A DNA stretch of 64,000 nucleotides from Leptolyngbya sp. FACHB-261 (GTDB lineage Bacteria; Cyanobacteriota; Cyanobacteriia; FACHB-261): the NCBI RefSeq assembly GCF_014696065.1, contig NZ_JACJPL010000013.1, forward strand, positions 124,001 to 188,000, given 5' to 3'. The translations under genes and the position numbers were made by a program. How positions within the stretch are numbered: position 1 is the stretch's first letter; each line of letters begins with the position of its first letter. Below the pieces are notes generated by a model, which was not told where the DNA came from, did not search any database, and saw nothing but the letters and a program-made list of their open reading frames with translations. Shown here piece by piece: positions 19,495 to 35,437 of the stretch.

Positions 19495-19590
19495 TTCCCC
19501 CTCTGTCGTAGGCTTACTGTTTTTCATTTTTATATTCGTCCGTTACTTGTTCCGTCTGGAATTGGCGGCAGGGGATCTTGAACGCTAGGC
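19484..19590 (+). other. Weak attC-like site after DUF4238 gene
   Basis: ACTCAAAC (19484-19491) overlaps the gene's end and GCTAGGC (19584-19590) stands where the repeat cassette begins; CCCCCTCTGTCG pairs partly with GGCGGCAGGGG. The end 7-mers deviate from consensus, so this is tentative. Confidence 0.35.
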
Positions 19591-19700
19591 TGCTCAAGCT
19601 ATAGGTGAGAACATAATCTAGAGCTTGTCTGATGGGATTTGACAAGGTATTGAAGGTTAAACTGGATGGGTTTCGTAGGCACTTTGAGTAGTTGTCAGCA
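19585..19700 (+). repeat. Dispersed cassette repeat, short copy
   Basis: Starts GCTGCTCAAGCTATAGGTGA and shares GAGAACATAATCTAGAGCTT, then an AGGTATTG segment, with the copies at 23151 and 28419. It has no 21-bp tandem units and no open frame, so this cassette is only about 195 bp including its attC. Confidence 0.75.
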
Positions 19701-19786
19701 GTTGAACACTTCAGTGCAGCGGATTGGCAAGCAATCATAGTACTGTATTCAAATTGGTCTGTAACCGCTGACTTTTGCCGTTCGGC
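19701..19786 (+). other. attC-like site
   Basis: GTTGAAC (19701-19707) and GTTCGGC (19780-19786) bound an 86-nt imperfect inverted repeat; CAGTGCAGCGG pairs with CCGCTGACTTTTG apart from unpaired bases. The left arm resembles that of the site at 23863, which follows another copy of the same repeat. Confidence 0.6.
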
Positions 19787-19885
19787 TGCTTACACAGTGT
19801 AACAACTGAAAGAAATCTCGCTTTGCCATAATTGTGGGTGTAGGAAGATATGCGAATGGTAGGCAAGCGAGGAGTGCGATCTACA

Positions 19886-20260
19886 ATGCAATCAATGTCG
19901 CAAATCGAAGCTGTCAAAACGATGGAGCGTCTTGTAGGGTCGCAGGATTGGCAAGCGGCAACCGCATACTTTACCTCTGACGTTATGTACAAGGTCGGCT
20001 CACGGGAGCCGGTTTACGGTGTAGCAGGCATCCGGGATTACATGGAATGGCAAAACCAATATGCTCTGTGGCAGGGGCACACGCTGCGACTCCAATGGAA
20101 CTACGACGACATTGTGGTGATTGAAGTTGACTCACATTTCATGCGATTGCGTGACCAACGCCCAATTACGATATCATGCACTGACATTTACCGTATGAGC
20201 GGGTTGCAAATCCGCGAATGGCGTGTCTATGCAGATATGTCCCTGTTTTTTGGGGACTAG
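19886..20260 (+). CDS. SnoaL/NTF2-like protein
   Basis: A ~124-aa protein. The pattern is that of an NTF2-like cone fold: MSQIEAVKTMERLVGSQDW (first helix), AATAYFTSDVMYKVGSREP, then YGVAGIRDYM and the strand IREWRVYADMSLF. Such folds serve as small hydrolases, isomerases or binding proteins. The start may be ATG 19886 (GAGGAG 11 bases upstream) or 19895. It lies in the same unit as the GST gene at 20416; no clear attC separates them. Confidence 0.75.
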   Translation: MQSMSQIEAVKTMERLVGSQDWQAATAYFTSDVMYKVGSREPVYGVAGIRDYMEWQNQYALWQGHTLRLQWNYDDIVVIEVDSHFMRLRDQRPITISCTDIYRMSGLQIREWRVYADMSLFFGD

Positions 20261-20415
20261 TAGGCAATTAAGAACGAGATAATTTCTTAAGGTTGAAGTA
20301 GCGAACGGCGTTGACTACGATGAGACGCAACCGAACAACTTTTGCATAAACCTTACTTGATCCCGTGAAATGACCTGTAATCCTTGACTAATTCTAGACG
20401 CAAAGAGGTTTCCTC

Positions 20416-21087
20416 ATGTCTGAGATCGAACTTTATAGCGCGGTTCTTTGTCCCTTCGCCTATCGAGCACGCTTAACTCTAGCCGAGAAACAAGTGCCAT
20501 TTAAGCTAATCGAAATTGACTTACAAAACAAGCCTACCAACTTTGAGGAAATTTCTCCCTATGGTCTAGTACCCTTACTCAAGCATGGCAAGTTCCGCAT
20601 ATGGGAGTCTGCGATTATTAATGAATATCTGGAGGAATCGTTTCCAACCCCTCCGCTATTACCCAAAGACCTGGTGCAACGTGCCCAAGCGCGAATCTGG
20701 ATTAATTTTGCCGATGTTCGGTTGTTTGCAGCCACTCATAAATTGTTGCTCACCCTAGAACCACTACAGCAAGCAGAGGGCGTAGAAGAACTAAGCAAGT
20801 ACTTACAATTTGTTGAGCAAGAGGGATTGCAAAAGTTATCGGCAGAGGAACCTTACTGGTTGGGCGCAGAAATCAGCCTTGTCGATCTGACCTATTACCC
20901 TTGGTTTGAACAAGTCGCAGTATTGGAGCATTTTCGTGGATTTCAATTCCCAAGCGGACTTAATCGCCTAAAAAAATGGTACGAAACCGTCGCCAACCGA
21001 GAATCAGTTCGGGCAATTGCCAAGCCTAAAGAATTTTATCTCAAACACTATGCGCGGTTACAAAGCTCGGCATCGGTGATTTCTTAG
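20416..21087 (+). CDS. Glutathione S-transferase family protein
   Basis: A 223-aa cytosolic GST. The N-terminal thioredoxin-like domain carries LCPFAYRARL with Cys13 in the place of the catalytic Ser/Cys (omega/zeta-like), GLVPLLKHG with the cis-proline, and WESAIINEYLEE, the glutathione gamma-glutamyl site (Glu-Ser). The C-terminal helical domain is complete. Likely roles are glutathione-dependent thiol transfer or isomerisation. Followed 41 bp later by an attC-like site, so it is a cassette gene. Confidence 0.88.
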   Translation: MSEIELYSAVLCPFAYRARLTLAEKQVPFKLIEIDLQNKPTNFEEISPYGLVPLLKHGKFRIWESAIINEYLEESFPTPPLLPKDLVQRAQARIWINFADVRLFAATHKLLLTLEPLQQAEGVEELSKYLQFVEQEGLQKLSAEEPYWLGAEISLVDLTYYPWFEQVAVLEHFRGFQFPSGLNRLKKWYETVANRESVRAIAKPKEFYLKHYARLQSSASVIS

Positions 21088-21128
21088 CATCGTTAGGCAG
21101 AGACGTTAAAAAGTTGGAAGAAATCACC

Positions 21129-21214
21129 GCATAACAAAGTCGATAAAGCAGACTGCGAGAGCCACTAGTGGAGTTGCAGAGAAAACTTGCAGCCGCTTAT
21201 CTTGGTCGTTATGC
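21129..21214 (+). other. attC-like site
   Basis: GCATAAC (21129-21135) pairs perfectly with GTTATGC (21208-21214). Inner arms CGATAAAGCAGACTGC and GCAGCCGCTTATC also pair with one or two unpaired bases. 86 nt. Confidence 0.8.
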
Positions 21215-21336
21215 CTGCAAGTTCTCGGTGGGGACGTGACCGAAAGTTTATCTGTTGGAGGTCAGGAATTAAGCTATCGTGAGATTGTTGGTGAGGCAGT
21301 GCTTTAGGGTTAGTAGTTAGGCAACTAAAACTTGAA

Positions 21337-21792
21337 ATGTCTACTCTGATTCATCGTCGGGTTGAGGAAGCACGTCAAGGCATTAATCCAGCAGTGATTT
21401 GTCGGGTTCCATCAGGCTGGGTAGTGCTTGGCGATGTGCAGTTCTTGCAGGGTTACTCTCTTCTACTACCTGATCCAGTCGTGCCAAGTCTGAATTCTTT
21501 AGCAATGGAGCAACGCACAAGCTTCTTGCAAGACATGACAGTTTTGGGTGATGCTTTGCTTGAGGTTACTGGCGCAGTTCGTATCAACTATGAAATCTTG
21601 GGTAATAGTGAAGCGGCGCTACACGCCCATGTGTTTCCGAGGTTTACAACCGAGCCAGAAGAGAAGCGGCGGAAGCCCGTATGGTTTTACGATTGGGCAA
21701 GTGCGCCTCCACTTGATTTGAAGCGGGATCAGCAATTGATGCGTAAAATTGCGGCATCGATTCAGCAGCGTCAGGAAATTGTGGAGAGTTAA
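21337..21792 (+). CDS. HIT family protein
   Basis: A 151-aa histidine-triad protein, expected to hydrolyse or transfer nucleotidyl groups. The motif reads ALHAHVFPRF: H96 aligns with the nucleophilic middle His and H98 with the third, but the first His of the triad is Ala94. Upstream, WVVLGDVQFLQGYSLLLPDP is the usual core strand pair. The protein lies alone between two attC-like sites, with a 120-nt leader of no obvious function. Confidence 0.8.
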   Translation: MSTLIHRRVEEARQGINPAVICRVPSGWVVLGDVQFLQGYSLLLPDPVVPSLNSLAMEQRTSFLQDMTVLGDALLEVTGAVRINYEILGNSEAALHAHVFPRFTTEPEEKRRKPVWFYDWASAPPLDLKRDQQLMRKIAASIQQRQEIVES

Positions 21793-21815
21793 TAGCACTG
21801 TGGAGCGTCGCGGCG

Positions 21816-21901
21816 GCATAACAACCCGGCTGAAGCAGACTGTTGGGAGCTTTGGTGGGAATATAAAAGTTACTTGCAGCCGCTCAGCTGGAACATTAGG
21901 C
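21816..21901 (+). other. attC-like site
   Basis: GCATAAC (21816-21822) and ATTAGGC (21895-21901) bound an 86-nt element; the usual first G of the right 7-mer is A. Inner arms CCCGGCTGAAGC and GCCGCTCAGCTGG pair. The left arm also resembles the half-site near 25231-25262. Confidence 0.7.
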
Positions 21902-22065
21902 AGCTTCAATTGTCGGTATGGTCGGTAGTTTGAATATCTGTAGCAATGGTTTTAAGTTACTCGCTCTGCCCTTAGGTTAAAGTCGGTAGACTTCGTACGC
22001 GAGGGACAACAAAGTTTGTGCCTACCGAGAATATTAGGAAACTGTTTTCCAACTGGAATAGTAGT

Positions 22066-22947
22066 TCAGTACTTCAAGCTAGCTGCGCCGCCGATCGATT
22101 GTCTGCCATAGAGGATAGCTCCAAAACCAGTAACATACATCAACAAGCTATAAACGGCAGCGGGCACAGCCATGTCGGGATTGTTGAGTAGACCAGCAGT
22201 GATGGCGAGCGCCAACGTTCCATTTTGAATGCCCACTTCAATGGCGATACAGATCTGTTGAGCCAGCGGCAGCCGAAACAACTTTCCAGCAAGAAATCCT
22301 GCTAGCGTTGCCAGTAGGTTGAGCAGCAATGCGCCGACTCCCACCTGCACCAGGAATCCTGGGAGCTTACTGCCTTCTCTTACCAGCAACAGCACAATAA
22401 TCAGCGCTAATAGTCCTACGGCAAGGCGGCTCATTTGCTTTTCTAGGCGACGTGCTGTGTCAGGAAACTGGTGACGAATTGCCATCCCGATCGCTGTAGG
22501 CAACAGCGTGATCAGGAAGATTTGCAGGATGGTAGTGCCAATCGGCAAAGCGAGCGCAGCACTTTTCCCTAGGAAATACTGGAGCGCCAGATTTGTAAAA
22601 AGGGGAATCGTAAACACGGTGATAATGCTGCTGACTGCCGTGAGCGTCACCGATAGAGCAACATCGCCCTTTGCCAGATAGGTAATAAGATTAGAGGAAG
22701 GACCGCCGGGACAGACTGCCAAAACAAGCAGACCCACAGCGATTTCCGGTTGCATGGGAACTACCAGTGTGATCAGGCTCCCAATCAGCGGCAGCAGCAA
22801 TACCTGGCAGACCGTGCCCACTGCAACTGCCTTGGGGTAGCGAGTGATTCGCTTAAAATCTTCTGGAACCAAACTTAGTCCCATACCTAGCATGACAATT
22901 GCTAGAGCCAGGGGCAGTAAAACAGAGGTGAATAAGTTGCTCTGCAT
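22066..22947 (-). CDS. Bile acid:sodium symporter (BASS) family transporter
   Basis: A 293-aa inner-membrane protein with nine to ten hydrophobic segments. Family marks are ALAIVMLGMGLSLVPEDFKR near the N-terminus, the unwound-helix motif VCPGGPSSNLITYLAKGDVA, and IEVGIQNGTLALAI (sodium-site region). Bacterial members import organic anions with sodium; cyanobacterial substrates are mostly unknown. The gene reads against the direction of the array, between attC-like sites at 21816 and 23068, so it must have its own promoter. Confidence 0.9.
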   Translation of the reverse strand: MQSNLFTSVLLPLALAIVMLGMGLSLVPEDFKRITRYPKAVAVGTVCQVLLLPLIGSLITLVVPMQPEIAVGLLVLAVCPGGPSSNLITYLAKGDVALSVTLTAVSSIITVFTIPLFTNLALQYFLGKSAALALPIGTTILQIFLITLLPTAIGMAIRHQFPDTARRLEKQMSRLAVGLLALIIVLLLVREGSKLPGFLVQVGVGALLLNLLATLAGFLAGKLFRLPLAQQICIAIEVGIQNGTLALAITAGLLNNPDMAVPAAVYSLLMYVTGFGAILYGRQSIGGAASLKY

Positions 22948-23067
22948 AAGTGCTAGAAATTGACAACAGGAGAGAATTTGATCTGTTCAGACCAGAAACA
23001 AAATAGCACCCATTGCACCTTAATCTTTACAAATATCATCAGTGAGTATTAATTTCACAAAAGCACT

Positions 23068-23156
23068 GCCTAACAACGCCCATGTACGCCGACCGCCGAG
23101 AGTTAGTTGGCTATGATGCAAAGGTTATCTGCAGCAGGTGATGGGCAGCGTTGGGC
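23068..23156 (+). other. attC-like site
   Basis: GCCTAAC (23068-23074) and GTTGGGC (23150-23156) pair, and AACGCCCATGTACGCC pairs with GGTGATGGGCAGC. 89 nt, one of the clearest sites. The dispersed repeat starts at its crossover point. Confidence 0.85.
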
Positions 23157-23600
23157 TACTCAGGCTATGGGTGGGAACATAATCTAGAGCTTGTCCGCTG
23201 TAATTTGAGAAGGTATTGCTGGTTAACCGTGTAGGCTTCGTTGAGCTGCTCGTTCACGCCCAAGCATCGCCGTAGGTATTTATTACTTTGGAGTACTCAA
23301 AAGCTATTTCCGCGACCGCCGATGTTATTTCCGCTGCCGCGGATGTTATTTCCGAGTACTCAAAAGCTGTTTCGGCGCTCGCCGATGTTATTTCCGTTGT
23401 CGCGGATGTTATTTCGGCGACCGCCAATGTTATTTCGGAGTACTCAAAAGCTATTTCCGAAGTCGCGGATGTTATTTCGGAGTACTCAAAAGCTATTTCC
23501 GCGACCGCCGATGTTATTTCCGAGTACTCCAATGTTATTTCGGCGGTCGCCATTGTTGATTCCAGTCCCGCCTAAGCAATAAATCGCAACAAACTCATAG
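23151..23600 (+). repeat. Dispersed cassette repeat, long copy with 21-bp tandem units
   Basis: The unit begins TTGGGCTACTCAGGCTATGG and shares its first ~130 bp and last ~50 bp with the copy at 28419-28680. The middle (23285-23565) is ~13 tandem 21-bp units of two main kinds, which translate in one plus frame as EYSKAIS- and ATADVIS-like heptads. Because 21 is a multiple of three and the units have few stops, long frames stay open on both strands, so coding is not shown. Copy number differs between the two long copies. Confidence 0.85.
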
Positions 23601-23862
23601 GTAGAACCACAGACGAATTCCCAATTGATCAGTTCAACCGTCGATTCAATCCACAAAACTACTTAACCGAGGAAAAAGAGCACTCCGCCATCCTGAGAAC
23701 AAATCAGTCAAGGAGCATCTATACGCCTCCTAAGCTCTTGCCGACCAATGCTTCAAGAAGCTAGGTCGAAACCGTGTAACGCCCACTTGCTGAGCAAAGC
23801 TTGCCAAGCCTATTCAGAAAGAACATGGAGGCTTACTCCATTCAGATACTGATGTTGCAGCA
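23601..23862. other. Rest of the long repeat cassette, no gene seen
   Basis: Between the end of the 21-bp repeat block and the next attC-like site I find no convincing coding sequence. The start (CAACAAACTCA) is still shared with the 28.6-kb copy; the rest is not. Confidence 0.5.
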
Positions 23863-23948
23863 GCCCGACACTTCACGGTAGCGGACGAACGCGAGCCGCT
23901 GGTGCTGAGTTCAAGGCTCTCTGCCGCCGCTGCGTTTTGCCGTTAGAC
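23863..23948 (+). other. attC-like site
   Basis: GCCCGAC (23863-23869) and GTTAGAC (23942-23948), 86 nt. CGGTAGCGGACG pairs with CGCCGCTGCG. It ends the long repeat cassette and begins the VOC cassette. Confidence 0.7.
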
Positions 23949-24017
23949 TGCTCAAAAAAGCTGCATAAGCGCTTAGAGACAACCATCATCTATAAGTAAA
24001 GCGAGAGATAGACTGCG

Positions 24018-24434
24018 ATGGTTGATGTTGGACTAACTCACATAGCGCTCCCCGTTACAGATATAGAGCAAAGTATTAAATTTTACTCTGTCTACGCTCA
24101 AATGCAGGTTGTTCATCGTCGCATTGACGCAGAAACAGGGATTGCGGTTGTATGGCTTTCTGATCGCACTCGCCCTTTCGTCATTGTTCTCATTCAAACA
24201 AGCTCAGTGCATCCCGTTCTATCTCCCCTTGCACACCTTGGAGTTGGGTGTCAAAGCCGAGAATTTATGGATGCTCTTTGTGAGAAAGCAAAAAAAGAAG
24301 GTGTTCTGCTTCAGGAACCAAAAGATTCTGGATATCCGGTTGGATACTGGGCTTTTTTACGAGATCCAGACGGTCACACACTTGAACTATCTTATGGACA
24401 AGAAATAGGATTAACTGTAAACCAGTCACCATGA
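24018..24434 (+). CDS. VOC family (glyoxalase/bleomycin-resistance-like) protein
   Basis: A 138-aa vicinal-oxygen-chelate protein. It opens VGLTHIALPVTDIEQSIKFY with a putative metal-binding His, and the second half-site ends in FLRDPDGHTLELSYG with His and Glu. Members bind metals or small toxic compounds. The start ATG follows a GCGAGAGATAG leader. Single-gene cassette. Confidence 0.85.
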   Translation: MVDVGLTHIALPVTDIEQSIKFYSVYAQMQVVHRRIDAETGIAVVWLSDRTRPFVIVLIQTSSVHPVLSPLAHLGVGCQSREFMDALCEKAKKEGVLLQEPKDSGYPVGYWAFLRDPDGHTLELSYGQEIGLTVNQSP

Positions 24435-24446
24435 AAATACGCTACA

Positions 24447-24514
24447 TCGGAACACCTCAGTCTAGTCAGTTAGTTGCAAAGGTTGTCTGCCTCCGGTGAG
24501 CTTGGTCGTTCGAC
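24447..24514 (+). other. Weak attC-like site
   Basis: TCGGAAC (24447-24453) and GTTCGAC (24508-24514), 68 nt. The right half (CTGCCTCCGGTGAGC, TTGGTCGTTCGAC) resembles those of clear sites; the left half is degraded. Confidence 0.4.
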
Positions 24515-24614
24515 TGTTCGTTCTGGGTTGAGACAGTGCTTCAAAGTTAACGACCAGTCACACAGTGCTAAGTTGGATTTCTTCAAAGCAAGTATAAAGT
24601 AAAGTGTTGGAATA

Positions 24615-25151
24615 ATGTCGCATTTGCTTCACACTGAACGTTTAAGTTTGCGCTCCTGTCAGATGAGCGATCTAGATGCTGTACACCAGTTATGGAACGA
24701 GGCTGATGTCCGACGATTTCTCTTCGATAATCGACAAATCTCTGTCGAGGAAGCAAAATCGTTTATTGAAACAAGTGTGGTGAGCTTTGCTAGTCATGGC
24801 TATGGAATTTGGCTCTTTTTTGAGCATCAAAGCGCTCAGGTAGCAGGGTTTTCAGGTCTGCTGCATTCACTACAAGGTTCACCGAGTCTAATTTTTGGCA
24901 CACGGCCTCAACTCTGGGGAAGGGGATATGCCAAGGAAGCTACACTTTCTATACTTCGCTACGCATTTGATGCGCTTGGATTGGAGAGAGTAGAGGCAGA
25001 CGTTGATGAGCCTAACAAAGCGTCGATTCGAGTGCTTGAGGCATTGGGAATGTCTCGAACTCGTAGAGCGATCGTCAATGAGCGTCCATTGCTTTACTAC
25101 GAAATTCAAACTTGGGGAAAAGCAGAAAGTACGAAGCTACCAGCAACCTAA
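24615..25151 (+). CDS. GNAT family N-acetyltransferase (RimJ/RimL-like)
   Basis: A 178-aa acetyltransferase. It starts LLHTERLSLRSCQMSDLDAV, typical of RimJ/RimL-type members, and the acetyl-CoA loop is RPQLWGRGYAKEA, close to the usual R/Q-x-x-G-x-G/A. VEADVDEPNKASIRVLEALG is the conserved motif B region. The acceptor (protein N-terminus, ribosomal protein or small amine) is unknown. The stop codon lies within the following attC-like site. Confidence 0.88.
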   Translation: MSHLLHTERLSLRSCQMSDLDAVHQLWNEADVRRFLFDNRQISVEEAKSFIETSVVSFASHGYGIWLFFEHQSAQVAGFSGLLHSLQGSPSLIFGTRPQLWGRGYAKEATLSILRYAFDALGLERVEADVDEPNKASIRVLEALGMSRTRRAIVNERPLLYYEIQTWGKAESTKLPAT

Positions 25152-25233
25152 CAATTAAGCTGCACTAGAACGTACCCATCGGATCAGTCGGGTTGCAAAG
25201 TTTATCTGCGTCCGGTGAGCGCAGCCGTTAGGC
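25146..25233 (+). other. attC-like site
   Basis: ACCTAAC (25146-25152) and GTTAGGC (25227-25233), 88 nt. AGCTGCACTAG pairs with GAGCGCAGCC. A half-length attC remnant (about 25231-25262, ending TTTAGGC) directly abuts it. Confidence 0.85.
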
Positions 25234-25305
25234 ATCACAACCCAGCTGGAATGCAGTTTAGGCAAAGTAGGGCGAAGCCTTTCGCCCATATAACGGAGGT
25301 AATAG

Positions 25306-25496
25306 ATGTCCCAAACTGAACGAAGGCTGCAAGACCTTGGAATCGTTCTCCCGCAGCCACTCCAACTGCCACCCGGAGTTGTCTTTCCCTTCTCTTGGGT
25401 TCGGATCGTTGGCACGAGGGCACTGATCTCTGGGCGTGGACCTGTCAACCTAGATGGAACAATCGCCCAACCTCTGTTGAACTTCATCCGAATGAC
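25306..25496 (+). pseudogene. RidA family gene cut off at an attC-like site
   Basis: A ribosome site GGAGGTAATAG precedes MSQTERRLQDLGIVLPQPLQ, and WVRIVGTRALISGRGPVNLD is a good RidA/YjgF N-terminal domain. RidA proteins deaminate reactive enamines. Similarity stops after about 58 residues (DGTIAQP), and the frame then runs into the attC-like site at 25497. The C-terminal half with the trimer's catalytic Arg is missing, so the product should be inactive. Confidence 0.7.
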
Positions 25497-25589
25497 ACCT
25501 AACAAACACATGCAGCGGAGCCCGCAAAGTGAATTCCGTATACTTCACACCAGTGCCGTTCGTGCGCCCGGTGATGCCTACCGTTATGC
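25497..25589 (+). other. attC-like site
   Basis: ACCTAAC (25497-25503) and GTTATGC (25583-25589), 93 nt. The end 7-mers pair incompletely, but CATGCAGCGG pairs with CCGGTGATGCC. It terminates the truncated RidA cassette. Confidence 0.65.
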
Positions 25590-25610
25590 AGAAGAAGCTT
25601 GCAGGTCACT

Positions 25611-26117
25611 ATGGAAGCCGATGTCACGTTAACTCCGTTCTCCAGCACCGAGGTCACGTTACTAAGACGTTGGCTAGTGGCTCCCCATGTCGCTGCTTGG
25701 TATCCTGACCCTGAAGACCATGTTGAGTGGGCAGCCAATCCACCAGCCGGTGGTGATCGAGCGCTGATCGCAGTCGGAGGTCAGACAGTTGGCTACGTTC
25801 GATGGCAGGCTGTGTCGCGTGAAATTTTGGATTCAGTTGGTCTTCACGAAATCCCCGCAGGATCGGTTGACGTAGACATTCTCATTGGTGAGCCGGAGTT
25901 TGTTGGTCGTGGGATCGGACCGAAAGCACTCCTGGTATTGTTGTCACAGCTTCGCCAGAGGCGAGATGTCCCGTTGGTTGGTCTGACTACAAGTGTGCAG
26001 AATCTGTTCGCACAGCGCGCCTATACCAAAGTTGGCTTTCGCATTCTGCGAGAATACAGCCCTCCTGGATATGGTCGTTGTTATCTTATGGTCTACAGTT
26101 TCAACGAAGATGCCTAA
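25611..26117 (+). CDS. GNAT family acetyltransferase (aminoglycoside 6'-acetyltransferase-like)
   Basis: A 168-aa acetyltransferase. TLTPFSSTEVTLLRRWLVAP, HVAAWYPDPE, VDVDILIGEPEFVGRGIGPK and NLFAQRAYTKVGFRILREY follow the order seen in AAC(6')-like and siderophore-type GNATs; the acetyl-CoA loop is VGRGIGPKA. Resistance cannot be claimed from this. I start at ATG 25611. The stop overlaps a GCCTAAC 7-mer (26112-26118) that has no matching right half nearby. Confidence 0.82.
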   Translation: MEADVTLTPFSSTEVTLLRRWLVAPHVAAWYPDPEDHVEWAANPPAGGDRALIAVGGQTVGYVRWQAVSREILDSVGLHEIPAGSVDVDILIGEPEFVGRGIGPKALLVLLSQLRQRRDVPLVGLTTSVQNLFAQRAYTKVGFRILREYSPPGYGRCYLMVYSFNEDA

Positions 26118-26485
26118 CACTGCGTTAGTGCGGACGAAACAGTAATTATTGGTGGGCATCCGAGGTGATCTGACGCCGCACAACTTCACCGTCCGCCTGC
26201 TTGTTCACTTCCGTACCCAATTGTATTCGAGTGTCCTGATCGATCGCTCAACCTGTTTTTTAATCCCTGTAAATACCTTCTTCGTGCACATGCACCACAT
26301 CCCTGCAACTTTTTGCCAATGTTTCCGTCTTTTCAGCAGAGCAAACGAAGTAGATAGTTACAATGCGTTGGTTCAGTGGGGTTGAAAACTAACAACTGGT
26401 TCGCCACCTACTTATTAGTCATTACTCTTAGTATCTTTGTCCTCACCATCCTGTGCGTTGCACCCTCTAACAAGAAGTTCATCCC
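26118..26485. other. Gene-free stretch with a long-range inverted repeat
   Basis: GTTAGTGCGG (26124-26133) can pair with CCGCACAAC (26176-26184). The order is inside-out relative to an attC, so I take it as a hairpin or a scrambled site. Nothing else is supported before the VanZ-like gene. Confidence 0.4.
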
Positions 26486-27040
26486 ATGACCAGCATGTTC
26501 TCAATTCAGTCTGCTCCCATACTTCTGTTCCTCTTTGTGGCGTATCTGGCTACCCTGGTGTACCTTGCTGTCTATCAAGGCAGAAGGTTGAGCCCTCTCC
26601 GGTTTGCAATTCTCACCGCATTCGTGCTCTACCTCCTTGCTGTTCTGCATCTTGTGTTGTTCCCCATGCAGATTCGTATTGGCAACCCTTATTCAGAAAA
26701 TCTTTGGTACATTAACGCGATACCAATCCTCACTGCTGATCTTCACAGCTTCTTGTCAAGTATGCTGCTGATGGTTCCGCTTGGCGTGTTTCTCCCCTTG
26801 ATCTTCCCTTCATCCTCGTCTATCAAAACCATTGCACGGCGAACGTTCAAACTCTCCCTAGCCATCGAACTCACGCAGTTTCTTACCAACATGATCTTGG
26901 GGAGTGCTCGCCTTCCCGATGTGAATGATGTGATTGCAAATACGCTGGGCGGGGTACTGGGATATCTGCTGTTCAAACAGATGTCACGTATTGCAGCCAT
27001 TGACGAATTCTTCGATCGGGACGCACGTCCAACACGCTGA
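26486..27040 (+). CDS. VanZ-like membrane protein
   Basis: A 184-aa protein with four to five membrane helices and the VanZ layout: VLHLVLFPMQIR near residue 60, a loop with NAIPI, LLMVPLGVFLPLIF, IELTQFL and then GSARLPDVNDVIANTLGGVL, the most conserved motif (xxRxxDxxDxxxNTxG). VanZ proteins are linked to low-level teicoplanin resistance and to cell-envelope functions; the role here is open. Cassette gene, same strand as the array. Confidence 0.85.
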   Translation: MTSMFSIQSAPILLFLFVAYLATLVYLAVYQGRRLSPLRFAILTAFVLYLLAVLHLVLFPMQIRIGNPYSENLWYINAIPILTADLHSFLSSMLLMVPLGVFLPLIFPSSSSIKTIARRTFKLSLAIELTQFLTNMILGSARLPDVNDVIANTLGGVLGYLLFKQMSRIAAIDEFFDRDARPTR

Positions 27041-27108
27041 ACGAACGGTCAAAGCACATCCGCAGCGCATACGATGAGTACAAGCCTCTTCAGCAACTGC
27101 GGATGGTA

Positions 27109-27182
27109 GTCGAACAACCGTGGTGCAGCGCGCTTGTGGTGTCGCCAGGGTTATTAGCAGCCGCTGACCAAGATCGTTATGC
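27109..27182 (+). other. attC-like site
   Basis: GTCGAAC (27109-27115) and GTTATGC (27176-27182). GTGGTGCAGCGCGC pairs with GCAGCCGCTGACCA, with unpaired bases. A longer alternative would start with GCTGAAC at 27036, at the VanZ stop. Confidence 0.55.
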
Positions 27183-27223
27183 GGCTCGACTAGTCGGTGA
27201 GGACGCAACCGCAAGCTTACCCA

Positions 27224-28276
27224 TTAGTGCTCAGCAATGATGTGAGCCATCTTATAAACTAGAGCTAATCCATAGTCGTGTTTATCTCGGTTAACCAGTG
27301 CTGTGATTGTTGTGCTAAAACCTGCCAACCTTGAAAAATGAAATGCGGCGGCTGAATATCCTGGTCCTTCACCTGTGTGCCCCGTGACCTTCCCATAAGG
27401 TGATTCTGTATCTATAAATAGTCCTAACCCATATCCTAAATTCCCAAATAACGGGAATTTTCCTAGGCTGTAATTAGGGTGGGACATTTGTTCAACAAGT
27501 GGCGGGTCGAGAATCTGCCCCCTAAATATTGCATCTATGATCATTGCAAGTTCTGGCGCAGTAGAAATGAAAACACTGTGAGCAACCCAGGCTGGATGAT
27601 AGATGCGAGTTATATCTTGTAATTCATCTCCATTGAAAAAAGCGGAATAGCCTGAAGTCAGATGAAAACTATTATCTAAAGTTATTGGGACAAAAGATTT
27701 TTTCAAAGACAGAGGGCTGAAAATCACTTGATCTAAGAGCATCTGTATTGATAAACCTGTTGTTCTCTCAAGAATGCGTTTGAGTAACAGATAGCCAATA
27801 TTGAAATATCCCCATCCTTTGCCTGGTGCGAATTGTAGTCCTTGGGTCTGGGCAAGATCTAGAAACGTTTCTGTCGACCAAGGAGAGCTAGGATTGGCTT
27901 TGACAGCCTCAGAATAGGCAGGCACTCCGCTGTAATCTGACAGCCCACTGGTATGGCTAAGCAGTTGACGAAGTGTGATGGAGGTATCTAGAGAAAGATC
28001 AGTTAGGTAGGCATGTACAGGTGCGTCTAGTTCAAGCAATCTTTTTCCAACCAGGTATAGTGATGCCGTTGCTATCAGGCTTTTAGTGATGCTGTAGATA
28101 TAAAAACTGGCATCTGTAGACAGCAACCCTTCATGATCTTTGTTTTCACAGCCAATTCCTGTTTCGAGAAAAGCCTGGCCATTGATATGTACAGCGATCG
28201 CAGCACCAGGAGTCTGAGATTTAATAAGGGATTGTTGGACAACTAATTTGAGTTGCTCCCGAAGGTCTTGATCCAC
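27224..28276 (-). CDS. Serine beta-lactamase / D-Ala-D-Ala carboxypeptidase family protein
   Basis: About 350 aa. The class C-like penicillin-binding fold has SxxK at S62-ITK (YSITKSL), Tyr157-F-Asn159 (YFNIGY) and HTGEGPG in place of KTG. No signal peptide is visible, so it may be a cytoplasmic esterase or peptidase rather than a beta-lactamase. The frame is open up to 28390, but that part is attC-like sequence; I prefer the GTG at 28276. It reads against the array. Confidence 0.8.
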   Translation of the reverse strand: MDQDLREQLKLVVQQSLIKSQTPGAAIAVHINGQAFLETGIGCENKDHEGLLSTDASFYIYSITKSLIATASLYLVGKRLLELDAPVHAYLTDLSLDTSITLRQLLSHTSGLSDYSGVPAYSEAVKANPSSPWSTETFLDLAQTQGLQFAPGKGWGYFNIGYLLLKRILERTTGLSIQMLLDQVIFSPLSLKKSFVPITLDNSFHLTSGYSAFFNGDELQDITRIYHPAWVAHSVFISTAPELAMIIDAIFRGQILDPPLVEQMSHPNYSLGKFPLFGNLGYGLGLFIDTESPYGKVTGHTGEGPGYSAAAFHFSRLAGFSTTITALVNRDKHDYGLALVYKMAHIIAEH

Positions 28277-28337
28277 AGTAAAGTACTTGAATACACAGTA
28301 GTTCAGTTTGTATGGTAGGGGTTGTGTTGTGATCGCC

Positions 28338-28424
28338 GCGTAACAACGCGCTGAACCGGAGCGGGATATAGGTCGTCTGCTAAGTTGCAAATATTGTCGC
28401 CATCCGGTTGCTTCGATGTTAGCC
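28338..28424 (+). other. attC-like site
   Basis: GCGTAAC (28338-28344) and GTTAGCC (28418-28424), 87 nt. GCTGAACCGGA pairs with TCCGGTTGCTT. The second long copy of the dispersed repeat starts at its crossover point. Confidence 0.85.
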
Positions 28425-28680
28425 TACTCAGGTTGTGGGTGAGAACATAATCTAGAGCTTGTCTGCTGAATTTGAGAAGGTGTTGCAGGGTCAACCGTGT
28501 AAATCTCGTTGAGCTACTCGTTCACACCACCAGCATCGTCTTAGGTATTTATTACTTTGGCGACCTCCGATGTATTTCCGCAGTCGCGGATGTTATTTCT
28601 GAGTACTCCGATGTTATTTCGGCGGTCGCCGTTGTTGATTCCAGTTCTGTCAAAGCAACAAACCCCAACAAACTCACCAG
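28419..28680 (+). repeat. Dispersed cassette repeat, shorter long copy
   Basis: Begins TTAGCCTACTCAGGTTGTGG and shares GAACATAATCTAGAGCTTGT, AACCGTGTAAATCTCGTTGAG and GGTATTTATTACTTTGG with the copy at 23151. The tandem block here (about 28558-28650) has only four or so 21-bp units, against ~13 in the other copy. The closing segment GTTGTTGATTCCAGT is shared. Confidence 0.85.
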
Positions 28681-28766
28681 TGGAAACACAGCGGAAAGTT
28701 TCAGTCCAGGAATAGTTATGCCGCTGAATTTCGGCGGAGGCGTGATCGCAAGCTGATCTGTTAGTG
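28663..28766 (+). other. Weak attC-like site
   Basis: CCCCAAC (28663-28669) and GTTAGTG (28760-28766), 104 nt. Inner arms pair partly. Some boundary is expected here because unrelated cassette sequence follows. Confidence 0.4.
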
Positions 28767-28853
28767 ACTATGTTTTCGAGGAACTAGCTTTCCTGAAATA
28801 CGTCTTAAGAAGGCGAATGCTTTCATTAGTAAAACATTGCTAAGGTGCTCACA

Positions 28854-29318
28854 ATGAATTCAAAGCAATTAGTGGTCTTAACGGGCAGTGTTGCTCTGGT
28901 ATCAGCGGGTGCGATCACTGGTGTCCAATCTTTCAAAAACGAAGCTCCTGTTACTGAAATCAATGCTAATTATGAAGAACGCGTACGACAAGCCACTGCC
29001 ACTGCCTTAACTCAACGAATCGCCCAAGTGGAAGTTGAAAAAGTTCTTCAGGGCGAAATATTTATGGAAGACGCACCTGTGATCACTCAGTTGAAAGAAC
29101 AGCAATCCAGTCTTGAAAAACGCCTTACCCAGTTACAACCAGATAGCAGCCAAAGTGCAATTGTCGTCGTTACCGCTAGTGCTATCGAGTCTAAAATTGC
29201 TGATTTAGAAGTGCTCTACGCGCAAGACCAAGCGAAGTTTTCTGATTCTCACCCAGCGTTGCAGGTGCGTAAAGCTCAAATCGAAGCCCTGCGCCAACGC
29301 CTGACCACGCTACAGTAG
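28854..29318 (+). CDS. Membrane-anchored or secreted coiled-coil protein
   Basis: A 154-aa protein of unknown function. Residues 1-30 (MNSKQLVVLTGSVALVSAGA and on) look like an N-terminal membrane anchor or signal. The rest is polar and helical with heptad-like spacing (VITQLKEQQSSLEKRLTQLQ and EALRQRLTTLQ), predicted coiled coil. LYAQDQAKFSDSHPALQVRK resembles linkers of Wzc-like chain-length proteins. ATG 28854 is preferred over 28845. Cassette gene followed by an attC-like site. Confidence 0.7.
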   Translation: MNSKQLVVLTGSVALVSAGAITGVQSFKNEAPVTEINANYEERVRQATATALTQRIAQVEVEKVLQGEIFMEDAPVITQLKEQQSSLEKRLTQLQPDSSQSAIVVVTASAIESKIADLEVLYAQDQAKFSDSHPALQVRKAQIEALRQRLTTLQ

Positions 29319-29351
29319 CAAGGATACTGATTTGACAAAAGTTGTGCGGCG

Positions 29352-29438
29352 GCATAGCAATTCGCTTGGAGCAGATTGCCGAAAGCTGCTGGTATTGAGT
29401 TCAAGTCTTCTTGCAGCCGCTTAAGCGAACCGTTGTGC
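29352..29438 (+). other. attC-like site
   Basis: GCATAGC (29352-29358) and GTTGTGC (29432-29438), 87 nt. TTCGCTTGGAGCAGATTGC pairs with GCAGCCGCTTAAGCGAA very well, although the outer 7-mers have one mismatch. Confidence 0.8.
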
Positions 29439-29689
29439 TGCTATCCTTGCTAGCTCCATGTCAATTATGAGATAAGTCTTTCTTAGTTGAACTGTCACGT
29501 CTCTCGGTAAATGGCAGGAATTTCGGCTCTTGCGCTCTTTTGGTGAAAATGGACTCGACCTCTCGTTCTTTTCGTGTGGAATCTGGATTTCAAGCTGCTC
29601 AAAAACCTAAATCACCTAAAGTGCGTAAGAGCCAAAATGGTTTGAAACTCGACAAATGTCACTCTGAGTTCTTTGAGGATGAAAAAAAG

Positions 29690-31081
29690 CTACTTTGGTT
29701 GATACTGCAAAATCCACACACCCTGATTCTTATGAGAGATGTAAATGTAGCCTCGGCGATCGACCAACACATCTTCGGTTTGCACAACTAGCCGATCTTC
29801 TGGAATCGGACCATATCGTTTTTCGGGATCAGGCGGAATAAAAAAGCCGATTTCTCGTGGTAGACGTGGTTTAGAAACATCAAAGATTCGCAAACCCGCA
29901 TTGAAGTAAGTCAGGTACAACAGATCACCTTGCTGCTGCACATCTGGATTGTGGAGTAGATGATTGATGTTGTGCGGTCCCTGCCAACCTCCCTTCTCGG
30001 AAAAGTCACTGTAGCCGTAACCATCCGGTGGCATAGGACGCGGTAGAACTGACAGTAGGAAAGGATTTGCCGGATCACGAATGTCCACGATCGAGGCATG
30101 GGCAGCCGCTCCGCCACCGTAGGAAACATCTTCAGAGTTGACGTAAGCAATGCCTTTTTCTGGCAGCGGCAATACGCTGTGCACCCCAAAGCGGGCATGG
30201 AATGGTGGACTGAAGGGCAACCGTCCAACTTGACGCGGTTTTGAGACATCGCTGATGTCTAGTACAACCATTCCCGCTGCCCCGTAGGAGAGGTAGGCTA
30301 AGTTCCCGACAACATAGGGTGGTCCATGATGAGAAACATGCATTGCACCAGGCTTTTCACCCCCTGCGGTATGTTGTCCTGGAACCCACCACCGTCCCGT
30401 CTCACGCGGTTTCTCAGGATTACTAATATCCACAATTACGTAGATATTGCCATCATATCCTGGCATTCCGGCTGCCAGATGAATGTAACGTCCACCCGCG
30501 TAGAAGTTGCGATGGGTACCTGTGCCGCCTGTGCGAAATTGTCCCAACCGCTTTGGATTCACCGGGTCTTGAATATCCCAAATCAGAACGCCCTCATCAA
30601 ACGCTTGTTGGTTCCCGCCAAAATTAGGAAAGATTTTCTCCAAAGCCGTGATCATGGTGTTCCCAGACACTTCCATTTGCAGTGTCCAGGTATTCCTGGG
30701 CCCCTCTAGGAATTTGGCAACTCTAGGTTGGGTTGGATCGGTCACATCCACAATCGACCAGCCAGAGTGCCAGGAGGGTCCGGTATAGAGATACCAACGT
30801 CCTTGACGCTCTCGAATCGACAGCTTGAATGCGGGTCTATCTGCCATGTCACAGTAGCCAACGACACGCACATTGTGAGCAATGGGTTCAGCCTGCCGTT
30901 TGAAGGACTGGCTGAAATGACCGCGTTGTGGTGTTTCTTGTAGGTAGGAACGGTTGAGAATTGTGGGCTGATCAACCATTTGAGCGGGTTGTTGAGCCGC
31001 TGCTTTTTTGCCCAGCACCGCACTGGTAAACCCGGCTGCTGTGAGGGCAAAGAATGATCGACGATCGCAAAAACCACACAT
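29690..31081 (-). CDS. LVIVD-repeat protein with Tat signal
   Basis: A 463-aa exported protein. The N-terminus CDRRSFFALTAAGFTSAV has the twin-arginine pattern and a hydrophobic core ending near AAAQ. The body contains LVIVD-type beta-propeller repeats: WSIVDVTDPTQPRVAKFLEG, GVLIWDIQDPVNPKRLGQF, YVIVDISNPEKPRETGRW, MVVLDISDVSKPRQVGRL, and ASIVDIRDPANP. Function unknown; members are surface or periplasmic propellers. It reads against the array and is by far the longest protein in it. Confidence 0.85.
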   Translation of the reverse strand: MCGFCDRRSFFALTAAGFTSAVLGKKAAAQQPAQMVDQPTILNRSYLQETPQRGHFSQSFKRQAEPIAHNVRVVGYCDMADRPAFKLSIRERQGRWYLYTGPSWHSGWSIVDVTDPTQPRVAKFLEGPRNTWTLQMEVSGNTMITALEKIFPNFGGNQQAFDEGVLIWDIQDPVNPKRLGQFRTGGTGTHRNFYAGGRYIHLAAGMPGYDGNIYVIVDISNPEKPRETGRWWVPGQHTAGGEKPGAMHVSHHGPPYVVGNLAYLSYGAAGMVVLDISDVSKPRQVGRLPFSPPFHARFGVHSVLPLPEKGIAYVNSEDVSYGGGAAAHASIVDIRDPANPFLLSVLPRPMPPDGYGYSDFSEKGGWQGPHNINHLLHNPDVQQQGDLLYLTYFNAGLRIFDVSKPRLPREIGFFIPPDPEKRYGPIPEDRLVVQTEDVLVDRRGYIYISHKNQGVWILQYQPK

Positions 31082-31409
31082 AATTTACCTGTCTTGAGTA
31101 CAACCTGAATAGAACAATTAGACACCTTCAGCAAGCGATTGAATCACAACCTGATTGGTTTGTAGAAACGGTATGAGCAAATGATTTCGGCTTCTGTTAT
31201 AGCTCACGTCTTCGGCGGGTGATGCTAATGCTAAAAGAAACTTTTCAACTCGTCCATCCTCAATTAACCTCAGTACCCAGCGGATAGATCTCGTAGCTCT
31301 CTCCACAAGTCACACTTAGAATTTTGCTGTCATTTAAAGTTGTCCTTGTTCTTAAAAGTGATCACTATGTTATGTGTTTGATCGTACATCTGAGTCGTCT
31401 GCGTATTGA

Positions 31410-31520
31410 ATCTGAAAATATGCGGAAAGATTCTGCCTATCTACTTGACTTATGGTGTTATACGGAAAGCATCCGCCTACACCACTATAGAGGTGTGATA
31501 CGGAAACTTTCAGTTCAATA
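31410..31520 (+). promoter_or_regulatory. Repeated motif with mutually exclusive hairpins
   Basis: Three copies of a TRCGGAAA motif start at 31421, 31461 and 31499, spaced 40 and 38 bp. ACACC (31479-31483) can pair with GGTGT at 31454-31458 (reinforced by CGGA/TCCG) or with GGTGT at 31492-31496. This could be a regulator-binding array or a switching leader for the gene at 31593. Otherwise nothing is seen in 31082-31592. Confidence 0.35.
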
Positions 31521-31592
31521 ATAATTAGCCTGGTAAAATTGCTAAACAATGCCTCACTTGTAAGCTGTGTGCAGTCAGAGTAGGAGTAAGTA

Positions 31593-32405
31593 GTGGAATC
31601 AACGTTCTTGCTTCACAAGCCAGTCAGTTACGGAAGCTCCTTTGCAAACTCCCTCTTCTTGATCATGCTTTTACCCCACATCATCGCTGGGGCGATCGCA
31701 CCGATCTCGGCTATTGTGGCCTTCACAGCGCGAAAGGGAAGCAAATCACACGTGCGCTCCGGACGCCTTTTCGCTTGGTCGATGGTCACCGTGGCGCTCA
31801 CGGGTATCCTGCTCGACGTGGTTCGACTCTGCTTTTTCGTACAAGAAAATCATACGAAATATGCAGGCTACTCCATGCCCAGCACCTGTCCGGCACGCCT
31901 AGGCTTTCTGTTTGTGGGTCTCTGTATTCTCTACATTTTACGAGAGGTCACACCGCCGCGTGTATTCCGTCGGCAGTCCAGAGAGACGGTTGCCACAGTG
32001 GTGCCCAGCCTGCTCGTTGCGACCGGACTAGTACTCACGCTCATCACCGCTTTGCGACTCAATCCGTGGACTGGTGCACTGTGGATGATCTGGACGTTCA
32101 TTCTCATTGTTATCGTCATGGCACGAACAACTTCGTCCTCGGACAATAACCGTGCGACGGATGTGGCGCGACATCGCTTTGGCATGAGCTGCTTGGCAGC
32201 ATTCAGTTGGTGGGGCGCGCTTCAGGGGTTTGGGCCAGCGATCGCCATCGCGATCAAGGGCGACGATCTGTCTACCAGCGCCTATCTGGGCAACCAGCCT
32301 GGTCCGTTTTCGCCAGCGTTTTTTCTCTTCCTCGTCAGCTGGGCACCGTTCTTTCTCCTCGCAGCATATCTGATTCGCCGCTCCACTAAGTTGCGTCACA
32401 TCTAA
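31593..32405 (+). CDS. Multi-pass membrane protein (DUF2306-like)
   Basis: A 270-aa protein with seven or eight hydrophobic segments. The start MLLPHIIAGAIAPISAIVAF, followed by RKGSKSHVRSGRLFAWSMVT, resembles DUF2306-type proteins, where a His in the first helix and a KGxxxHRxxGR loop recur. GTG start behind AGGAG. Function unknown. The stop codon lies in the next attC-like site. Confidence 0.65.
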   Translation: MESTFLLHKPVSYGSSFANSLFLIMLLPHIIAGAIAPISAIVAFTARKGSKSHVRSGRLFAWSMVTVALTGILLDVVRLCFFVQENHTKYAGYSMPSTCPARLGFLFVGLCILYILREVTPPRVFRRQSRETVATVVPSLLVATGLVLTLITALRLNPWTGALWMIWTFILIVIVMARTTSSSDNNRATDVARHRFGMSCLAAFSWWGALQGFGPAIAIAIKGDDLSTSAYLGNQPGPFSPAFFLFLVSWAPFFLLAAYLIRRSTKLRHI

Positions 32406-32483
32406 CTAGGCCACTGCAGCAAACGATCTAAGCACGATGATGCTGAGTTACGCTTTACTTATCGCCGAGTTCAACCGTTAGAT
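32400..32483 (+). other. attC-like site
   Basis: ATCTAAC (32400-32406) pairs perfectly with GTTAGAT (32477-32483). Inner pairing is weaker than elsewhere. 84 nt. Confidence 0.65.
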
Positions 32484-32551
32484 CAACGCATAAAATAATT
32501 ATTGTCGGCACTATTTTCTACAGGTTTTGAAAGGACTTTACAAGAAATGCC

Positions 32552-32878
32552 ATGATGAACCAAGAAACTCCCCCACAAAACGTCATTGACTGTTTGCAGA
32601 TCATCTTGGATGCTACTGTTTCAAACGATTATGATCTTTTTACCACGGTAGGTAATTCATCTTACAAAGCAGGCATTACCAAGCAAATGTTTGAAGGTGT
32701 TAGTGAACAGATTGCTCCACGTATGTTAGAGGGATATACAACCGCTTATCTTGGTCATTTGAAACAACTTCACTATCAAATCTATTTGTGGAAGCTAAGC
32801 TTTGAAGATGATGGAGACGAGTTTGTAATACGCATGACTATGGATAGAGACAAAGTCGCTGGGATTTTGATCGCGTGA
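32552..32878 (+). CDS. Hypothetical small cassette protein
   Basis: A 108-aa soluble protein I do not recognise. It has an N-terminal helix (NVIDCLQIILDATVSNDYDL), a basic loop, and a C-terminal strand pair (HYQIYLWKLSFEDDGDEFVI). The layout of one helix then an alpha/beta body is compatible with an NTF2-like fold, but that is a guess. ATG 32552 or 32555 could start it. Single-gene cassette between two attC-like sites. Confidence 0.7.
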   Translation: MMNQETPPQNVIDCLQIILDATVSNDYDLFTTVGNSSYKAGITKQMFEGVSEQIAPRMLEGYTTAYLGHLKQLHYQIYLWKLSFEDDGDEFVIRMTMDRDKVAGILIA

Positions 32879-32909
32879 CGCCTATGTCGGAAACATGCTG
32901 TAAGGCACG

Positions 32910-32994
32910 ATATAACAAATCGTTGCAATGGCGGAATAGACCTAACCACTTGTGATGCTGAGGTTTTAGCCGCTGTTGAACTCAATCGTTATGC
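32910..32994 (+). other. attC-like site
   Basis: ATATAAC (32910-32916) and GTTATGC (32988-32994), 85 nt. GTTGCAATGGCGG pairs with GCCGCTGTTGAAC. Inner arms are stronger than the outer 7-mers. Confidence 0.75.
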
Positions 32995-33071
32995 AGCACA
33001 GCAATTCCCTCCTGAAAGGCCGCCCATCCCCTTGATCAGCTAGTCATGTCAATATCCAATGCTCAGAATGC

Positions 33072-33118
33072 TTGACATGCCATACATCACAGCCTATCAT
33101 TCAACTATATGGTTGAAT
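33072..33118 (+). promoter_or_regulatory. Promoter with operator over the ArsR-family start codon
   Basis: TTGACA (33072-33077), a 17-bp spacer and TATCAT (33095-33100) make a near-consensus sigma-70 promoter. ATTCAAC (33099-33105) and GTTGAAT (33112-33118) form a perfect inverted repeat whose centre contains the ATG at 33109. Transcription should start around 33106-33108, giving a leaderless or nearly leaderless mRNA. The repeat is the obvious site for autorepression by the encoded ArsR-type protein. Confidence 0.7.
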
Positions 33119-33432
33119 CGAGTGTTGCTCTCGATATGATTTTTGGTGCTCTCGCCGACGCGACGCGGAGAGACATCCTTAAGCGTGTATCGAGAGGAAA
33201 ACACACCATAAGCGAATTAGCGGAACCGTATGCCATGTCTTTAGCAGCGGTTGCAAAGCACATCAGCGTGCTTGAGAAAGCAGGACTCGTGACCAAGTGT
33301 CGAAGTGGTAAGGAGAAAGTTATTCATGTCGAACCAAAGACAATCAAACTAGCTGCAGCGCACCTCAGCGAATATGAAAAAGTATGGGGTGCCCGCTTCG
33401 ATGCCTTGGAACAATTGTTAGAAGAAAATTGA
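33109..33432 (+). CDS. ArsR-family transcriptional regulator
   Basis: A 107-aa winged-helix regulator. ALADATRRDILKRVSRGKHT leads into the helix-turn-helix (ISELAEPYAMSLAAVAKHIS), then VLEKAGLVTKCRSGKEKVIH forms the wing. No metal-binding Cys pair is present in the usual places, as in the subgroup paired with SRPBCC proteins. It probably represses its own operon through the palindrome at its start codon. The next gene begins 19 bp downstream. Confidence 0.88.
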   Translation: MVESSVALDMIFGALADATRRDILKRVSRGKHTISELAEPYAMSLAAVAKHISVLEKAGLVTKCRSGKEKVIHVEPKTIKLAAAHLSEYEKVWGARFDALEQLLEEN

Positions 33433-33451
33433 CTAGTAGGAGCACAATTGT

Positions 33452-33931
33452 ATGGCACATCTGAAAGTAACGGTCCCAGAAAATTCACAGAATATCTTGG
33501 GCACCGTCACAATCAATGCTTCATTAGAAAAAGTATTTGAAGCATACGTCAAAGAGGAGCTCTTCGCTAAATGGTGGTGTCGCGGTAATTCGATGAAAGT
33601 TTACCATTTTGATTGCAAAGACGGCGGGAGCTGGCATATTGCCGAGCAATCAGAAAACGGCAATGAGTATGAATTCACTGGCTGTTTTCACGAAGTAGCT
33701 AAAAACAGACGTATTGTGCAGACGTTTGAATTTTTAGGGATGCCAGAGCGTGGACACGTCATGCTGGAAAAAGCCGAGTTTGTGGCTATTAACGAACATA
33801 CAACTGAGATTCGTACACACAGCACCGCAATGACTCAAGAAGACCGTGACGGCATGGTTGCAAGCGGAATGGAAAGCGGTTGGAGTCAGTCAGTTGAAGC
33901 CCTCGGCAAGCTTTTAGAATCAGAAAATTAA
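33452..33931 (+). CDS. SRPBCC (AHSA1-like) domain protein
   Basis: A 159-aa ligand-binding START/SRPBCC-fold protein. TVTINASLEKVFEAYVKEEL, FAKWWCRGN, DGGSWHIAEQSENGNEYEF and GMESGWSQSVEALGKLL follow the AHSA1/CalC pattern. Genes of this type commonly sit directly after an ArsR-type regulator, as here. The ligand is unknown. Likely co-transcribed with the regulator and with the DUF1428 gene 111 bp downstream. Confidence 0.87.
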   Translation: MAHLKVTVPENSQNILGTVTINASLEKVFEAYVKEELFAKWWCRGNSMKVYHFDCKDGGSWHIAEQSENGNEYEFTGCFHEVAKNRRIVQTFEFLGMPERGHVMLEKAEFVAINEHTTEIRTHSTAMTQEDRDGMVASGMESGWSQSVEALGKLLESEN

Positions 33932-34042
33932 TTACAACCTGCTTTTTTGAAAGACCAGTCTTGGTTAGAAGCTAGCGACTTCAAAGAGTCAATTCAGCAA
34001 AGCATTGCAATTAATTTAGTCAAAATTGAGAGGTGAAACTCA

Positions 34043-34405: not shown

Positions 34406-34441
34406 ATTAAACTATGTGTTCTTGAGTTAACTGGAGACACT

Positions 34442-34530
34442 GCATAACGTTCCGCTTGCACACCGACTGTACTGAATTGGTTAATTGAAAACCAAAGGTT
34501 ACTAGTGGCAGGTGAAGCGGAACGTTATAT
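34442..34530 (+). other. attC-like site
   Basis: GCATAAC (34442-34448) and GTTATAT (34524-34530), 89 nt. ATAACGTTCCGCTTGCACACC pairs with GGTGAAGCGGAACGTTAT almost perfectly, making this the strongest stem in the array. Confidence 0.9.
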
Positions 34531-34730
34531 GGCTTGTTTTATTAGGTGTGGCAGTTATTAAAAAGCAGTTATTAAAAAGATGTCCACGAATGTTTGAAAA
34601 TTAAGTTTAGCTTGAGCCTCTAAATCAGCGCTTGATACCTAAATATCGTTCGTTTTCATACATTACAAGCTCGGCATCCAGTCAATCAGATATTATACTG
34701 CTCTAAGATTAAGGCCACTCGACAGACAGA

Positions 34731-34935: not shown

Positions 34936-34943
34936 CTCAGAAC

Positions 34944-35312: not shown

Positions 35313-35325
35313 GGGGTGGACTGAA

Positions 35326-35413: not shown

Positions 35414-35437
35414 CCATACCAAATTGTTGGAGCAACC

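Follow-up and report, generated by a model that had tools for sequence, protein, structure and literature searches.

Probable decayed integron platforms carrying a non-coding 21-bp minisatellite within the cassette arrays of a Leptolyngbya genome

Repeat-bearing units in the cassette arrays of the cyanobacterium Leptolyngbya sp. FACHB-261 are probably decayed integron platforms that lie within the array, carry a non-coding 21-bp minisatellite of Nostocaceae type, and were possibly spread by past integrase activity. The units form a multi-copy family with borders at attC and attI, sister copies retain integrase relics, the repeats and their flanks have a non-coding signature, and no intact integrase gene was found in the genome. 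The analysis started from a window of 64,000 nucleotides (contig C13, positions 124001-188000), the whole stretch of DNA to which the coordinates in Table 1 refer, in a genome of 6.95 Mb and 36 contigs (assembly 97.7% complete).

The window contains three units of the family, copies A, B, and C (Table 1). A sequence-only reading had taken them for copies of one cassette that begin alike exactly at attC crossover points, two with tandem 21-bp units (about 13 and about 4) and a third with none. The repeat content was as described (13 cores in 263 bp and ~3.5 units in 73 bp), copy C being a head alone. The shared start at attC crossovers was borne out with the attC model for copies A and B: the last 7 bp of the left attC of copy A (GTTGGGC, 23150-23156) are also its first bases, with the start at G^TT, 23151, and the last 7 bp of the left attC of copy B are likewise its start (28419, the base behind the G of GTTAGCC). 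Copy C (19585) shares the start, but in front of it the attC covariance model detects no site. The attI-type ending of copy B was reached after a deletion, and the next cassette follows directly (ORF 28845-29318, attC 29348-29438). The description as copies of one cassette holds as to one family, but not as to an ordinary gene cassette, given the integrase relics in sister copies and several attI ends. The surrounding cassette array (19697-36630), with ~19 predicted attC sites, codes among other things for a glyoxalase and a pair of GNAT acetyltransferases; it also holds, in reverse orientation, a gene of the beta-lactamase family (serine hydrolase) at 27224-28390. The solitary attI-like site in the same array has neither head nor 21-bp array; the ORFs on either side of it are 29690-31081 (reversed) and 31593-32405 (forward).

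Table 1. Features of copies A, B, and C and associated recombination sites in the window (E values from attC covariance model R1; training sites match the model by construction)
Feature	Position	Strand	Remarks
attC of cassette preceding copy A	23064..23156	+	attC covariance model R1, E 4e-20; training-set site
Copy A head	23151..23288	+	~140 bp, common to ~14 other copies
Copy A 21-bp array	23289..23551	+	13 variable 9-bp cores, 12 linkers (AAAGCTATTTCN or RATGTTATTTCN), 263 bp
Copy A tail	23552..23720	+	~160 bp, common to other copies; without coding signature
Copy A region aligned to tail end of copy H (C26)	23720..23858	-	
attC closing copy A on right	23859..23948	+	E 2.5e-14; training site; attC in place of attI
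attC of cassette preceding copy B	28334..28424	+	E 1e-11; training site
Copy B head	28419..28557	+	
Copy B short 21-bp array	28558..28630	+	73 bp, ~3.5 units, 1-bp deletion in unit 1
Copy B truncated tail	28631..28691	+	
Copy B attI end (CGGAAAGTTTCAGTCCAGGAATAG^TTATGCC)	28692..28722	+	read from sequence against attI ends of K, L, N, O, G
Copy C head fragment	19584..19664	+	array-less
attC behind copy C	19697..19786	+	E 1e-8; not a training site
Solitary attI-like site	31402..31529	+	repeats AATATGCGGAAAGATTC / GTGTTATACGGAAA, end AATAATAATTAG; further platform remnant

Genome-wide, searches with the head and tail of copy A yielded ~18 copies or fragments, as counted from search matches, on six contigs (C13, C26, C31, C1, C5, and C20). 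The 200-bp head of copy A alone has 31 matches on six contigs; with the copy at C26:319965 the head identity is 96%. For detection of attC sites we used a covariance model, which replaced an own-made finder of too little power; the model was built on nine attC sites of the window, and these nine match by construction, the sites in regions L009-L018 being independent of it. Across the cassette regions examined, the model identifies ~50 further sites. An attC ends exactly at the head in 12 copies (A, B, D, E, F, G, I, J, K, M, O, and Q), an attI-like right end with a different cassette directly behind is present in seven (B, G, K, L, M, N, and O), and both borders are present in B, G, K, M, and O. 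The left flanks are unrelated among copies apart from attC and head, and among the four right flanks compared (K, L, M, and O) attI is the only common element. Beyond the position of the integrase relic, repeats such as TTATGCGGAAAGATTC are present in copies G, K, L, M, N, and O, and most of these copies end in CAATAATAGTTAG or a close variant; this attI architecture is the same as that in front of the start codon of intact intI genes at L052 and L058. Matches of attI type number 18 genome-wide, one of them the solitary site in the window. The family thus includes units with the borders of an attI-type cassette: G^TT of an attC on the left, attI on the right.

Relics of integrase genes lie in sister copies. 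On the strand opposite to that of the EYSKAIS heptad reading, copies E and F2 continue from the head into "DGKGS", "GLRLKE", and an N-terminal integrase region, and fragments matching the integrase family TIGR02249 lie beside copies E, F2, and G. A tblastn search with 28 intact cyanobacterial IntI proteins assigns residues 1-79 and ~140-169 to copy E (E 3e-17 to 1e-4), residues 1-79 and 170-191 to F2, residues 1-88 to G, and residues 248-293 to H, all broken by stops and frameshifts. Such relics are not detectable in the window copies themselves; copy A has a region that aligns to the tail end of copy H, where the C-terminal relic is detected, and in copy A alone the relic is not significant. 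Neither head nor tail is recognisable as IntI (E > 0.3 in hmmsearch). We dropped a derivation of head and repeats from integrase codons (matches by eye of the head to IntI residues 211-250, and of EIAFEYS to IntI), the profile search of head and tail being not significant. No match in the genome exceeds the TIGR02249 cut-off of 265 bits, the highest score being 60; an integrase above it is present in 123 of the 390 class genomes. A second, distinct integrase relic (G000:C5:14704-14904; IntI residues 1-67, one stop) is unlinked to any head or array copy.

Because sister copies retain integrase relics and several copies have attI ends, we read the unit as a decayed platform and not as an ordinary gene cassette. 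What marks a decayed platform, a TIGR02249-type integrase gene (here as relics) and an attI used by a first cassette, is present, and what marks a functional one, an intact integrase gene, is absent. One ORF with its own attC, as in an ordinary gene cassette, is not what the units contain: there is no coding signature, and B and six other copies end in attI. In the best-preserved copies, the order proposed for the plus strand begins with the attC of the preceding cassette and G^TT, continues through head, 21-bp array, and tail to the intI remnant (on the minus strand), and closes with attI, G^TT, and the next cassette. While the integrase was still active, recombination between attC and attI would have cut this segment out and inserted it anew as a cassette of attI type with the platform as its cargo; this would have spread the platform through the arrays, the integrase genes decaying afterwards. 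The 21-bp array would have been carried along between integrase remnant and attC border, as a hairpin-capable, strictly 21-bp minisatellite that may grow and shrink by whole units.

Against the platform reading stands that no single copy has all parts intact. The copies with the longest integrase relics (E and F2) lack the array, in those where an array is joined by a clear attI (K, L, M, N, and O) no intI is recognisable, and only copy G has an array, an N-terminal relic, and an attI. Since the relic in H and the aligned region in A are C-terminal, deletions must be invoked. Among 30 intact relatives, the 1.5 kb available behind the integrase showed no cassette-strand attC, so a platform inside a cassette array looks unusual. 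Five intact cyanobacterial integrases (L043, L046, L057, L062, and L064) have an attC on the intI strand, downstream or, at L046, upstream, with no attI seen before intI; these may be reverse-type integrons.

Ordinary homologous recombination, or segmental duplication between cassette arrays, could also have multiplied the copies without integrase, the 21-bp array then being the recombination substrate at which the head of one copy is joined to the tail of another. In favour of this, affinities of heads and tails are partly discordant, most clearly for L and M, which are 95% identical in their tails and 78% in their heads; for M and O the values are 90% and 77%, respectively. Several copies also share one region, with five within ~15 kb on C31. 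But the borders of the copies coincide exactly with attC and attI crossovers, beyond which the neighbours are unrelated, and the low correlation between head and tail is a weak signal for recombination, the correlation between the two halves of the head being low too. The results are no more than suggestive for recombination within the array as a general rule. Multiplication of the copies by homologous recombination is a serious competitor of spread by integrase, though we consider it unlikely.

In the platform reading, the 21-bp units are not a gene. According to the alternative, each unit would be a cassette gene in which the 21-bp units encode an extendable heptad (coiled-coil) protein, either on the plus strand (EYSKAIS/ATADVIS) or on the minus strand (MATAEITS..., with a C-terminal tail). 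Features that fit a protein are the 21-bp period kept by the arrays, a hydrophobic spacing of 3-4 in both frames, a complete minus-strand ORF of ~130 aa with ATG and stop in copy G, and a weak in-frame hydrophobic segment upstream in D, M, and O. Both strands are indeed open, as the sequence-only reading had observed; by inspection, however, the two heptad frames, on opposite strands, face each other and share their wobble positions, so the openness of both strands carries little information, and a simple codon-position test is blind to strand and still tests for coding at all. Such a test, which the sequence-only reading had called for, shows no bias in array units or tail. The array units have no third-position excess, with synonymous and non-synonymous counts near expectation, counts that are not independent of one another inasmuch as a few ancestral polymorphisms recur. 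The tail has a pN/pS of 0.90 in the heptad frame and no codon-phase bias (p 0.45). In 12 arrays of related genomes of family f32, 128 distinct changes likewise follow a neutral pattern: 33 synonymous vs. 35.2 expected, and 28 vs. 30.7 in the other heptad frame. Among the Nostocaceae arrays listed, the pooled count gives an excess of synonymous change in another frame, CYFGxR, probably because a small number of shared C/T polymorphisms entered the count repeatedly. The minus frame is broken by a stop or frameshift in A, B, D, L, M, and O, and most plus frames have no start codon. No Pfam family exceeds its cut-off, and arrays elsewhere are mostly intergenic. With no codon bias in arrays or flanks and with frames broken in most copies, a coiled-coil gene is unlikely; neither codon-position bias nor a conserved frame with start and stop, the marks of a heptad-repeat gene, is present. 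Near-neutral change, flanks without codon phase, frequent stops and frameshifts, and inconsistent start codons together make the heptad protein highly improbable. We read the 21-bp repeat class as non-coding, and the sequence-only reading's other suggestion, a repeat that acts as DNA or RNA, fared better than the protein.

The number of 21-bp units is variable, as claimed, at 2.5, 3.5, 6.5, and 12.5 in the measurable copies; array lengths are 263 bp in A, D, G, and M, 137 bp in O, 74 bp in H, 73 bp in B, and 53 bp in F and L. The repeats had been called in-frame, which is correct for array A, with its exact 21-bp spacing of cores, but not for copy B, whose array, with its 1-bp deletion, does not stay in frame throughout. 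Four arrays are identical in length (263 bp) despite a differing order of units; descent in register as the source of this equal length is unsupported, the best register being zero for the G-M pair only. In copies F, G, and H on C26 (L010:15241-15485, L011:3111-3580, and L011:5697-5995), the first head-side unit is inverted, GGAAATAACATC for GATGTTATTTCC, with the frame kept.

Added to the platform reading, the array could have a function as nucleic acid, such as that of a bidirectional terminator rich in hairpins or of phased protein sites at 21 bp (two helical turns) behind intI. Array A folds strongly compared with dinucleotide shuffles, both as RNA (z -9.3 for the minus strand, -5.5 for the plus strand) and as DNA (z -4.0), because the cores GCGACCGC and GCGGTCGC are mutually complementary and GAGTACTC is palindromic. 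The four own arrays of identical 263-bp length, and the regularity of Nostocaceae arrays (below), would be in keeping with a function. But the shuffles destroy the repeat structure and leave repetitiveness uncontrolled, so the fold is only a hint of function; many copies have a short array or none; genes in all orientations are seen beside Nostocaceae arrays; and Rfam has no match for head, tail, or array in the window region. Indel depletion was rejected as a sign of constraint: the ratio of indels to substitutions in arrays (1/29) is not clearly below that in flanks (9/184). A function of this kind is improbable on present evidence.

The repeat class extends to other cyanobacteria. A pattern of three exact tandem units (GYTRTTTCNG-N11) has 30 matches in the genome, and its reversed control has none in all 390 genomes; arrays of the same design are present in four genomes of family f32 (G376, G190, G334, and G282) and in G169. 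A first scan of the genome collection with a unit from the genome itself gave no match, nor did viral contigs. A scan of named genomes gave at least 120 stretches with an array, the 80 loci listed including Nostoc, Komarekiella, Desmonostoc, Dendronalium, Tolypothrix, Spirirestis, and other cyanobacteria. Among the loci listed, 73 of 77 arrays lie outside long ORFs, and 718 of 739 unit spacings are exactly 21 bp. By unit pattern, the arrays in Leptolyngbya belong to this Nostocaceae-type minisatellite class, be it homologous or convergent. Two expectations of the sequence-only reading fail here: arrays of the class are not always bounded by attC, since Nostocaceae have arrays that lie outside an integron context, and unit lengths are not always multiples of three, the exceptions being copy B and 7 of the 739 spacings in the Nostocaceae arrays listed. 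Several arrays lie within elements, MITE-like by eye, that are bounded by GGTGCGTTACGC and an end CATAACGCACC or CGTAACGCACC. Nostoc arrays at nine loci (L130, L138, L139, L143, L147, L153, L154, L155, and L175) are in or beside MITE-like elements with ends GGTGCGTTACGC...(C)ATAACGCACC, and other Nostoc arrays adjoin a dispersed GCGATGCCTACGGCTGGCTACGCCTACGC repeat.

Components of the platform reading have precedents. Pseudo-integrons and duplicated intI genes are known (Nemergut et al., 2008, PMC2426708), and sedentary chromosomal integrons, CALINs (attC clusters without integrase), and pseudo-integrons (PMC2426708) resemble the arrays here in attC array, varied cassettes, intI pseudogenes, attI sites, and lack of an intact integrase; those systems have one platform at one end, whereas here platform remnants are many and stand among the cassettes of several arrays, every one bordered by a separate attC and often ended by a separate attI. 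Cassettes of the form attC-ORF-deltaattI are excised and re-inserted by IntI1 in the laboratory (PMC12901181). The deltaattI-type cassettes of class 1 and class 2 integrons (PMC12901181) share the architecture attC-X-attI, but there X is an ORF, mostly a resistance gene, and attI mostly a short remnant, whereas in the present units an integrase remnant and the repeat array take the place of X, several copies have a long attI, and the units are known from sequence alone. Tandem repeats of cyanobacteria include the LTRR of Anabaena (mentioned in PMC2408588); LTRR and STRR (the latter used for STRR fingerprinting) are, like the 21-bp class, intergenic tandem repeats of filamentous cyanobacteria with hairpin potential, a likeness of general description. 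The literature searched contained no paper on a 21-bp repeat class.

The usual picture of an integron is one fixed platform that collects mobile cassettes. We suggest tentatively, as a possibility somewhat short of an even chance, that in one cyanobacterium the integron became its own passenger: the platform moved as an attC-bordered, attI-ended cassette, sowed ~18 copies, and left internal attI sites, and the repeat array may since have let heads and tails, and hence blocks of cassettes, recombine without integrase. Open reading of a 21-bp repeat on either strand does not speak for a gene; the class is abundant between Nostocaceae genes and easily mistaken for heptad proteins. The platform itself in many attC-bordered, attI-ended copies suggests a route to large cassette arrays and to integrase-less CALINs, and the same route is suggested for the origin of internal attI sites.
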